DNA from: Nocardia sp. NBC_01730
GTDB taxonomy: Bacteria; Actinomycetota; Actinomycetes; Mycobacteriales; Mycobacteriaceae
Length of the DNA stretch: 64,000 nucleotides
Direction of reading: 5' to 3'
Assembly (NCBI RefSeq): GCF_035920445.1
Contig: NZ_CP109162.1
Location: 6,262,001-6,326,000 of the forward strand
Under the pieces are notes generated by a model. The model did no database searches and was not told where the DNA came from. It saw only the letters and a program-made list of their open reading frames with translations. Within the stretch, counting starts at the first letter, position 1, and each line of letters begins with the position of its first letter. Position numbers and translations under genes: made by a program. Positions 32,373 through 43,763 of this stretch are shown here, in pieces.

Positions 32373-32590
32373 ACGGGCTGGTCCTGCAGCTGGATAGTGC
32401 CGCAATACCGAAATCGGGCCGCTGTCAGCCGATCCGGCGAAGTAGGAGCCCGACCACAACCGCTGAGTGCGCCAGTAGTGACGCACCACGTCTGGGAATT
32501 CCTGCTGAAGCCTTCGGGAAACACGCCTTTGACGGAGTTCACCAGATTCGAGGGCCCACCACCGGTGGGAAGTTCACCGGCAACTTCCCG
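32369..32590 (-). pseudogene. IS200/IS605-family tnpA relic, multiply frameshifted
   Basis: Minus-strand fragments in shifting frames match the end of an IS200-type Y1 transposase: LPVNFPP, LVNSVKG, then LQQEFPDVVRHYWRTQRLW and SGSYFAGS, then ISVLRHY containing the catalytic-helix Tyr region, then QLQDQPV and TAG. At least three frameshifts separate these pieces (for example near 32501 and near 32388). No start or upstream half was found. The remaining bases to the next gene (32591-32718) hold nothing recognised apart from its ribosome site. Confidence 0.7.
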
Positions 32591-41695: not shown

Positions 41696-41905
41696 TCAGC
41701 GGGCGCGCAGCCCGTCGAAGACGACCGCGAATGTGCGGTTGCGCTGGGCAGGGGTGGCGCTGGTGCTGTGGGTGGCGAGGAAAGCGCCTTTGAGGATTCG
41801 CATCAGGTCGTCGGTTTCGATGTCGGTGCGGACGGCGCCCGCTTGCTGGGCGCGAGTCAGCAGCGTGCCGATTGCCGTACGAATGGTGGCGACAGAGTCG
41901 GTGGA
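41696..41905 (-). pseudogene. TetR regulator, C-terminal fragment
   Basis: About 70 codons at the 3' end of a frame read TIRTAIGTLLTRAQQAGAVR, TDDLMRILKGAFLAT and NRTFAVVFDGLRAR with TGA at 41696, the C-terminal ligand domain of a TetR/AcrR repressor. Upstream of 41905 the frame becomes antisense to the SnoaL-like fragment, and no helix-turn-helix exists. The gene was cut by a rearrangement whose junction lies at about 41900. Confidence 0.65.
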
Positions 41906-42106
41906 AAGTTCGCGTGAGCTGGTCGAGAAGTTGTTCGGTCGGCTCCGGCATCGTGATGCGGATGCGTTCGTCGAGCTGTTCGCGCCCGACGGGGTGTTCG
42001 AGATCCCCTTCGTAGTTCCGGGCATCCCAGCTCGGCTGGACGGGCGTGACGCGATTCGCGAGCACCTGGCGCAGCGGTGGTCGGGGCTGTCCGGCAGTGC
42101 ACGGCA
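41901..42106 (+). pseudogene. SnoaL-like (NTF2 fold) gene, N-terminal half, split by a tnpB element
   Basis: The frame from GTG 41901 reads ELVEKLFGRLRHRDADAFVE, FAPDGVFEIPFVVPG, RLDGRDAIREHLAQRWSGL, a typical N-terminal half of a nuclear-transport-factor-2-like protein. A one-base shift near 42095 moves the frame so that it continues VHG. Homology then stops at the element boundary near 42106. The C-terminal half resumes at 43570. Confidence 0.7.
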
Positions 42107-42260
42107 TCCATCCGTTGCGTGAGTTTCAGCGCTTGTCGGCGCTGAGGCTCTTCCTGCGTCGTCGACTGCTGCCCGGCCCGGAAAAGGCCGTGGTCTTACG
42201 CGGTCTCGGCGAGGCGTTTCACCTCTCCGGGGAACTTCCCGGCGAGGACCACATGTTCGG
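42107..42260 (-). ncRNA. candidate omega-RNA (TnpB guide RNA) region
   Basis: TnpB nucleases use an RNA that covers the 3' end of tnpB and the right end of the element, the guide being the flanking host sequence. Here that interval contains the stem TCAGCGC-N6-GCGCTGA. The predicted guide would begin at 42106 on the minus strand (TGCCGTGCACTGCC...). Placement is by analogy; the 5' limit is arbitrary. Confidence 0.4.
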
Positions 42261-43476
42261 GTTCGGTGTCGGCGAGCATCGCGGCCAGCAGGTTCCCGGC
42301 CGCGTTGTGGTCACGGTCATGCACCACACCGCAGCCGCGACATTCCCAGGTCCGGTCGGCCAGGGTTAAGCCGTGTTCGACTCGCCGGCAGGCACCGCAG
42401 GTCTTCGACGAGGCGAACCAGCGGTCGGCCTTCCACACCCTGGACCCGTACCAGCGGGCCTTGTACTCCAGTAGACGCACGAACTCGGCGAACCCGGCAT
42501 CGCAAATCGCGCGCGCCAGTCTCCGGTTGGCGGCCATACCTTTGACATTCAATGTCTCCACCGCGATGGCCGTCTTGGTTCTCGCCAACCTCGTAGTGGT
42601 TTTGTGCAGAAAATCCTTCCGCTGGTCGGCGACCCGCAGATGCCGCCGCGCCACCCGTACCCGGGTCTTGTTCCAGTTGTTCGACTTCGGTCGGCAGCGT
42701 GCGAGTTTCCGGTTCGCGCGGCGTAACGCCCGCTGCGCTCGGGCCAGGGGTTTGGGCGCGTGGATCTCCTCGCGGCCTCCGTCGTCGTCGGCAATCACCG
42801 CGAAGGTCTTCAACCCCAGATCGATCCCGGATTTCGGGGCGCCGCCGGGCACCCGGCGGCGGGTGTTGAGCTTGTCGCGGTCGACCTCGATCTGGAACGA
42901 GATCCACCACCGCCCGGTCTGTTCACGCACCGTGGCCCCGAGAATCCGGGCACGCCCGTCGGTCACTCTGTGCGTGAGCCAGGACATGTCCTCCCGGGTG
43001 GCCACCTGTCCGATCCCGGGCAGCCACACACTGCGGGGGCTGAGGGGTTTGGCGCGGTCGGCATCGTAGCGAAATCGGCTGCTGTCCTTGCGTTTACGCC
43101 AGGTCGGGAACCCGACTCGCGGACCCTTGCGTTTGCCGGTCTTGGATTGCAGGTAGTTGGCGAACCCGGCCGCCCGCACCCGACACGCCTCCTTGGGCAC
43201 CCGCGACGACAGCATATTCTCGGTGAACCACGGGAACCGGGACCGATGCGTCGCGCGCCATTCCTTCTCCAGCGCGGGCGCGGTCCACGGCATCCTGGTC
43301 AACTGCTCACCGGTGAAACCGTAGGACTCCTCGGCCTTGCGCTGCGCCCACTTCTTGACCACCGTCTCCAAACAGAAGTTCTCCACCACCCGCGACAACC
43401 CCGCATGCCGACCCATCAACACCGCATGCTCCGGATCGGGAGCGAGCTCGAAACGCACCCCCTGCTTGTGACTCAC
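42196..43476 (-). CDS. tnpB: RNA-guided endonuclease TnpB
   Basis: A 426-aa protein. The N terminus SHKQGVRFELAPDPEHAVL starts the wedge-like domain. RuvC residues are all present: Asp in SGIDLGLKTFAVIADD, Glu in AIAVETLNVKGM, Asp in VVHDRDHNAAGNLL. The four-Cys zinc finger is KTCGACRRVEHGL plus WECRGCG. It should therefore be catalytically competent. GTG 43476 is preferred since it yields the usual N terminus and has GGGG-rich sequence upstream; ATG 43539 is the alternative. It lies antisense inside a split SnoaL-like gene. Confidence 0.88.
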   Translation of the reverse strand: MSHKQGVRFELAPDPEHAVLMGRHAGLSRVVENFCLETVVKKWAQRKAEESYGFTGEQLTRMPWTAPALEKEWRATHRSRFPWFTENMLSSRVPKEACRVRAAGFANYLQSKTGKRKGPRVGFPTWRKRKDSSRFRYDADRAKPLSPRSVWLPGIGQVATREDMSWLTHRVTDGRARILGATVREQTGRWWISFQIEVDRDKLNTRRRVPGGAPKSGIDLGLKTFAVIADDDGGREEIHAPKPLARAQRALRRANRKLARCRPKSNNWNKTRVRVARRHLRVADQRKDFLHKTTTRLARTKTAIAVETLNVKGMAANRRLARAICDAGFAEFVRLLEYKARWYGSRVWKADRWFASSKTCGACRRVEHGLTLADRTWECRGCGVVHDRDHNAAGNLLAAMLADTEPEHVVLAGKFPGEVKRLAETA

Positions 43477-43569
43477 CCACACCCCGCGATCCCCCAGGCC
43501 CGCACCGAATCGAACATACAGACGATAGCCGAGAAACATAGACAAACACAGAAGAACAAGCGAGCAGCT

Positions 43570-43763
43570 TTGAACCCCAGGTCTACGAGACCACCGACCC
43601 CGGGGTCTTTCTGGTGGAGAACGAGGTCGACATGACGCACCCCGGCGCCGAGCGAGCCCGCGTTCGCACATCGGTCAACGTGATTCGGGTCAGAGACGGC
43701 AAGGTGGTGCTGTTCCGCGATTACATGAACACCGCGCGGTTCGCAGGTCTCGCCGCCCGCTGA
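43570..43763 (+). pseudogene. SnoaL-like gene, C-terminal half
   Basis: The frame ending with TGA at 43761 reads EPQVYETTDPGVFLVENEVD, ARVRTSVNVIRVRDGKVVLF, RDYMNTARFAGLAAR: the end of the NTF2-like fold begun at 41901-42106. It has no start of its own. The two halves are separated by the tnpB element. The 150 bases after it hold nothing recognisable. Confidence 0.75.

Follow-up and report, generated by a model that had tools for sequence, protein, structure and literature searches.

The question raised by this locus is what kind of element splits a SnoaL-like gene with a nuclease gene, where this element begins and ends, and which target-adjacent motif (TAM) and guide its nuclease would use. 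The window, that is, the whole 64,000-nt stretch analysed, corresponds to positions 6262001-6326000 of the single-contig 8.68-Mb genome of Nocardia sp. NBC_01730. The left part of the SnoaL-like gene (41901-42111, plus strand) matches PF12680, and the right part (43577-43763, plus strand) is joined to it in relatives. Between them lies a minus-strand tnpB gene (42196-43476), which starts with a GTG at 43476 conserved in relatives, ends at 42196 and encodes 426 amino acids. Both PF01385 and PF07282 exceed their cut-offs in this frame, and three hallmarks of a TnpB nuclease are present: the RuvC residues D219, E307 and D389, a zinc finger with two CxxC pairs (CGAC and CRGC) and the OrfB_IS605 domain. 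The guided_TnpB model (NF040570) gives 232.7 bits against a cut-off of 100. No transposase gene was found within the element. An earlier note on this DNA had described an intact tnpB with these residues, a SnoaL-like gene split by it and an element without a transposase gene, and all of this holds. A minus-strand frame at 41696-41900, abutting the SnoaL-like gene, resembles by eye the end of a TetR-type regulator.

As an empty-site query, 401 nt of the joined SnoaL flanks were run against 148 genomes of the genus. Matches were obtained in 70 of them (own genome and weak partial hits counted), and the SnoaL-like gene is uninterrupted at the junction in all 29 loci examined. On the element strand, the flanks rejoin at GG, giving GACCTGG-GG-ATGGATGCC. 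The empty site of relatives reads CTGGGGATGGATG or close to it, the filled site reads CTGG-GG-TTCAAAGC ... CGCAAC-GG-ATGGATG, and only one of the two GGs remains after rejoining. Compared loci carry L numbers here. Rejoining at GG was found in all five copies with both flanks alignable, namely the window copy, L010 and L013 from the same genome and L066 and L068 from other genomes (the last two by eye). The L010 site and the L013 site are each uninterrupted in 12 of 12 loci; at the L013 junction, three homologues are base-for-base equal to the joined sequence and the other nine are off by a base or two. Judged by eye, GGGG precedes the guide in 17 of 17 homologues of L066 and in 7 of the 10 homologues listed for L068, the other three having GGAG. 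For L063, where only the right side was aligned, GGGG is found in 3 of 7 homologues. The homologues of L067 have one additional T, and its left side was not found. Thus, GG stands at both ends and is exchanged with a target GG, and there is no target duplication. IS607 is described in a passage of PMC6188088 as inserting at GG without duplication. The junction found here is of the kind described there.

The ends of the element were bounded by the other copies. A search of the own genome with the element gave 10 matches. L009, which matches over 1468 bp at 98.6% identity, is a second copy with a tnpB that is also open (426 amino acids). L010 (8131133-8132160 of the genome) is internally deleted, L011 is without the left end, L013 (6163567-6163767) is a derivative of about 200 bp that has lost tnpB and kept both ends, L014 is a left-end piece, and L012 is a more distant fragment. 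Because L009, L010, L011, L013 and L014 share them, the ends can be placed. The right end, ...CGCAACGG, is identical in five own-genome copies (window, L009, L010, L011 and L013), and the flanks beyond it are unrelated. Ten matches in other genomes of the genus extend to the right end; eight of them stop exactly at base 42112, and two run 1 and 5 bases further. At the left, the window copy, L009, L010, L013 and L014 have at least one flanking G and then share GG-TYSRAA, and the more distant L066 and L068 have a different sequence after the left GG. Therefore, the element spans 42112-43576 (minus strand) with GG counted at both ends, and is 1463 bp long when GG is counted once. The right-end GG of the crossover dinucleotide is at 42112-42113, and the left-end GG, from which the element begins GGTTCAAAGCTGC, is at 43575-43576; both were placed from other copies and empty sites. 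The pentamer TTCAA, which the earlier note took for the TAM, is missing from the SnoaL empty sites and the L013 empty site, and is therefore sequence of the element itself. Because the empty sites do not rejoin at 42106/43570 and the other copies have different ends, the ends at 42107 and 43569 proposed previously are refuted.

The peptide thought to be restored by removal of 42107-43569 fails likewise. In the relatives, the translation by eye at the SnoaL junction is ...GTGCACGSNATYCATCCCCAG... or similar, and the junction codon encodes H, Y or once R in the 29 relatives, never E. On this comparison, VHGIEPQV is not the ancestral SnoaL peptide. Against the 29 aligned relatives, 5 nt are deleted in the left half of the window gene, between 42096 and 42097 (between GGCA and GTGCAC). 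This deletion frameshifts the left part, and VHGI is therefore not in the reading frame of the upstream SnoaL part.

Which family the element belongs to was considered from its protein and its relatives. In the NCBIfam ranking, IS607_TnpB (NF038280) comes first with 317.5 bits, yet below its curated cut-off of 350, and is followed by guided_TnpB and IS200_TnpB (229.6 bits). Plasmid records with a match number 2298; 15 of them were listed, and 14 of these carry the annotation IS607-family TnpB. From a contig scan, the best 80 of 117 relatives were kept; the nearest among these are five copies in Kribbella sp. VKM Ac-2527 (74-76% protein identity to the window TnpB) and one in Actinokineospora xionganensis (64%). 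The elements of both hosts have recognisably the same right-end RNA as the window element. In contrast to the window element, two of the Kribbella copies keep pieces of an IS607 tnpA. In L126, an IS607 transposase frame (151.6 bits against a cut-off of 110) lies upstream of tnpB and overlaps its start; it is a fragment without the first 54 positions of the model. L130 holds a 40-bit remnant. The five Kribbella copies are L125-L128 and L130, and the tnpA pieces of L126 and L130 differ in length.

In the window element, the left end is about 100 nt from the tnpB start, and there is therefore no room for tnpA. The best own-genome score of the IS607 transposase model (NF033518) is 22.3 bits, below the cut-off of 110, and a local supply of this transposase was rejected on this result. 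One of the four weak own-genome matches, L091, resembles by eye a general resolvase. Across the genus, the model gives weak matches in 148 of 148 genomes and exceeds the cut-off in 2. No IS607 transposase turned up in a motif scan of 18 loci, from the own genome and the genus, that contain copies or fragments of the element; the motif used was narrow and also missed the L130 remnant. The IS607 family (IS607, IS1535, ISXfa1) combines a serine TnpA with TnpB. The window element shares with it the GG at ends and target, the lack of duplication and an IS607-like TnpB, and has a relative in which an IS607 TnpA fragment overlaps tnpB, but it has no tnpA. Because the serine recombinase TnpA is absent, the element is placed only as a tnpA-less derivative of this family. 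The GG rejoining and the Kribbella transposase fragment lead to the same assignment, a tnpA-less IS607-type element and not an IS605-type one. Thus, the locus is very probably occupied by a non-autonomous tnpA-less IS607-type insertion element that has kept tnpB and its right-end RNA. To this reading, comparison among copies and genomes contributes the ends, the GG target, the empty sites, the intact catalytic residues and a genome with no IS607 transposase above cut-off. As a tnpB-only relative of IS607, the element is nothing unusual. We found no literature on TnpB in Nocardia together with IS607.

The earlier note had read a TAM and a guide off the scar, and the GG junction does allow both to be predicted, by analogy with ISXfa1. 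In a passage of PMC10711439, wild-type ISXfa1 TnpB depletes GGG, and the right-flank nucleotide is part of the scaffold. By the same rule, the TAM of the window element is predicted to be GGG(G), directly before the guide in the empty site; it would be formed by the core GG together with the flanking GG of the GGGG target (43577-43578, minus strand), and the right-flank G would count as scaffold. The predicted guide, ATGGATGCCGTGCACTGCCG, starts after the right-end GG and occupies 42092-42111 of the minus strand (read 42111-42092). An IS607-type exchange at GG thus gives GGG(G) in place of TTCAA as the predicted TAM, and moves the predicted start of the guide to 42111 (ATGGATGCC...) from the 42106 (TGCCGTGC...) read before. 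This corrects the TAM and guide to be used for testing; TTCAA is expected to fail. At the right end, CGG and not GGG precedes the guide in all 18 aligned right ends, which probably limits self-cutting. A figure legend in PMC10711439 contrasts D-P-G with D-hydrophobic-G RuvC motifs; set beside this contrast, the motif of the window TnpB is D-L-G. Among solved structures, the best match of the protein is an AI-designed nuclease (9yyg, 201.6 bits), and 8bf8 and 8h1j (RNA-guided DNA endonuclease TnpB), which we take to be ISDra2 TnpB, match over most of the protein with 162.6 bits. The TAM of ISDra2 TnpB is A/T-rich according to a part of PMC11061315, whereas a G-rich TAM is predicted for the window element.

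The right end was then considered as an RNA. The predicted reRNA (omega RNA) scaffold occupies 42112-42247 of the minus strand and overlaps the 3' end of tnpB. Eighteen sequences of 115-138 nt were aligned, and to the RNAalifold structure the terminal hairpin was added by hand. Of the cells, 93.2% are paired; sliding the structure lowers this to 35-44%. Changes on both sides of a pair occur in 19 cells, against 8.1 in shuffles, and none of 500 shuffles reaches 19. The number of pairs with such a change is five, which is not unusual, since 167 of the 500 shuffles reach it. Judged from this alignment, the right end forms an RNA whose structure is conserved. Up to E = 1, Rfam has no hit on the element strand; a plus-strand microRNA match was rejected as below its gathering score. 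In L009, the terminal hairpin is weakened by changes (CCTCAACTCTG), and its RNA is therefore possibly less fit than that of the window copy. L013, although without tnpB, retains a complete right-end RNA with its own guide, and could be served in trans by the TnpB of other copies.

From these features the following course can be proposed. A serine transposase acting in trans, since lost or never resident, would have moved the element by exchange at GG. A reRNA with its end in the flank may be processed from the tnpB transcript, and the TnpB-reRNA complex would then cut any site with GGG(G) followed by ATGGATGCCGTGCACTGCCG, that is, the element-free allele. Because the element-free allele would be cut, repair from an element-bearing copy would keep the insertion. 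At about even odds, some cuts in this Ku-encoding genome would be closed by end joining and leave indels near guide nt 15-16 beside three copies. Such indels might arise from weak cutting of the element's own right flank, or from an element-free sister that is cut and then repaired half by recombination and half by joining.

The observations behind this last step are as follows. The 5-nt deletion of the window copy (minus strand), a candidate TnpB cut scar, removes guide nt 16-20 of the empty-site sequence. Beside L010, 51 nt are missing, with a breakpoint at guide nt 11-16, a spread caused by a GGTGT repeat; beside L013, there are 12 additional nt, with a breakpoint at nt 12-16. Thus, all three own-genome copies with readable empty sites have an indel (5, 51 and 12 nt) that includes or touches nt 15/16. 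No indel at the guide site was found in L063, L066, L067 and L068, which are copies in four other genomes. These seven filled sites were counted. L009, L011 and L062 were left out as unreadable (the right flank of L009 has no homologue among the hits listed, the single homologue of L011 aligns from nt 20, and those of L062 from nt 35 and 44), and L064 and L065 are outside the count. Indels of at least 5 nt at guide nt 11-22 are present in 3 of 7 filled sites and in 0 of 101 homologue rows, numbers that are small, come from related rows and serve an idea formed post hoc. Indels specific to a filled copy number 8 over the seven sites, 3 of them at nt 11-22; those specific to a single homologue number 46, with 1 in this interval (a 3-nt insertion at nt 15, L288). 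For the position of indels in filled copies against homologues, Fisher's test gives p = 0.008, with the same reservations on related rows, small numbers and a post hoc idea.

ISFba1 TnpB, an IS607 TnpB with a G-rich TAM, cuts mostly at 16 nt on the non-target strand and 22 nt on the target strand, according to a passage of PMC11061315, and these positions bracket the 5-nt scar of the window copy. ISFba1 uses the TAM AGGAG and a RAGATH-18-derived RNA (same source), whereas the window element lacks an element-strand Rfam match. Ku is encoded in the own genome (173.9 bits), and end joining is therefore possible. Cautiously and post hoc, we read the indels beside the three copies as end-joined TnpB cuts. 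In this case the chromosome would record TnpB activity: the insertion site would have been cut, either in an element-free allele or weakly in the copy's own right flank via CGG, and Ku-type end joining would have left the indels near guide nt 15-16. We regard this as evenly balanced. A limited search of open-licence papers, judged by title and the start of the abstract, found none on such scars.

The indels may instead reflect neutral decay of disrupted DNA or slippage at the right-end hairpin, with no part played by TnpB, and we give this somewhat less than an even chance. Genes are disrupted at two of the three sites, GGTGT repeats flank the 51-nt deletion, the cases are only three and were noticed post hoc, and the sites in four other genomes have none. 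Against this, the only three indels of at least 5 nt at the seven filled sites all have breakpoints at nt 11-16, and the homologue rows have none of this size at nt 11-22 though 9 occur elsewhere in them. L010 interrupts a gene that by eye resembles O-acetylhomoserine sulfhydrylase, and the 51-nt deletion lies in the same gene. If the indels are indeed TnpB scars, the cut position and activity of a TnpB could be read from genome comparison alone, and retention driven by TnpB would be imprecise in hosts with end joining. If the pattern holds, genome surveys could reveal, with no experiment, whether a TnpB is active, where it cuts and how the cut is repaired.

Whether TnpB is still made and active bears on all of this. 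A dead relic, frozen for want of tnpA, would agree with the lack of an IS607 transposase above cut-off and with the several other copies that are deleted or fragmentary. We consider it unlikely, because the 426-codon frame is open with its catalytic and zinc residues in place, L009 is a second open copy, and dN/dS is low across the family. This ratio is 0.16-0.23 in seven comparisons with relatives from other genomes; between the two own-genome copies it is 0.39, a value resting on 13 coding differences. By these comparisons, TnpB is under purifying selection.

An IS200/IS605-type element with a TTCAA TAM and a Y1 transposase was also considered, since the three closest copies have TTCAA or TTCGA at their left end and three Y1 matches exceed the cut-off in the own genome. 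This is very improbable: the SnoaL and L013 empty sites, which have no TTCAA, rule out such a TAM, the HMM ranking and the relatives listed are IS607-type, and there is no Y1 match in the element. Of the three Y1 matches, the two examined as a source of mobility, L015 and L016, are fragments distant from the element and were rejected. Least probable of all is a TldR-like role, in which a TnpB without catalytic activity would have been domesticated as an RNA-guided repressor. A resident, tnpA-less element might suggest this; against it, D219, E307 and D389 are all present, the would-be guide flank differs copy by copy as in mobile elements, and a locus and guide conserved across species were not seen among the copies compared.

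Three minor observations were made in the searches. In L290-L293, no right end was detected by a motif scan. A C-terminal remnant of a Y1-type (IS200/IS605) transposase (25 bits against a cut-off of 23) lies at 32394-32525 of the minus strand, about 9.6 kb away from the element. PF07282 (Cas12f1-like_TNB) has 13 matches in the own genome (L018-L030), three of which (L020, L021 and L024) are copies of the element.
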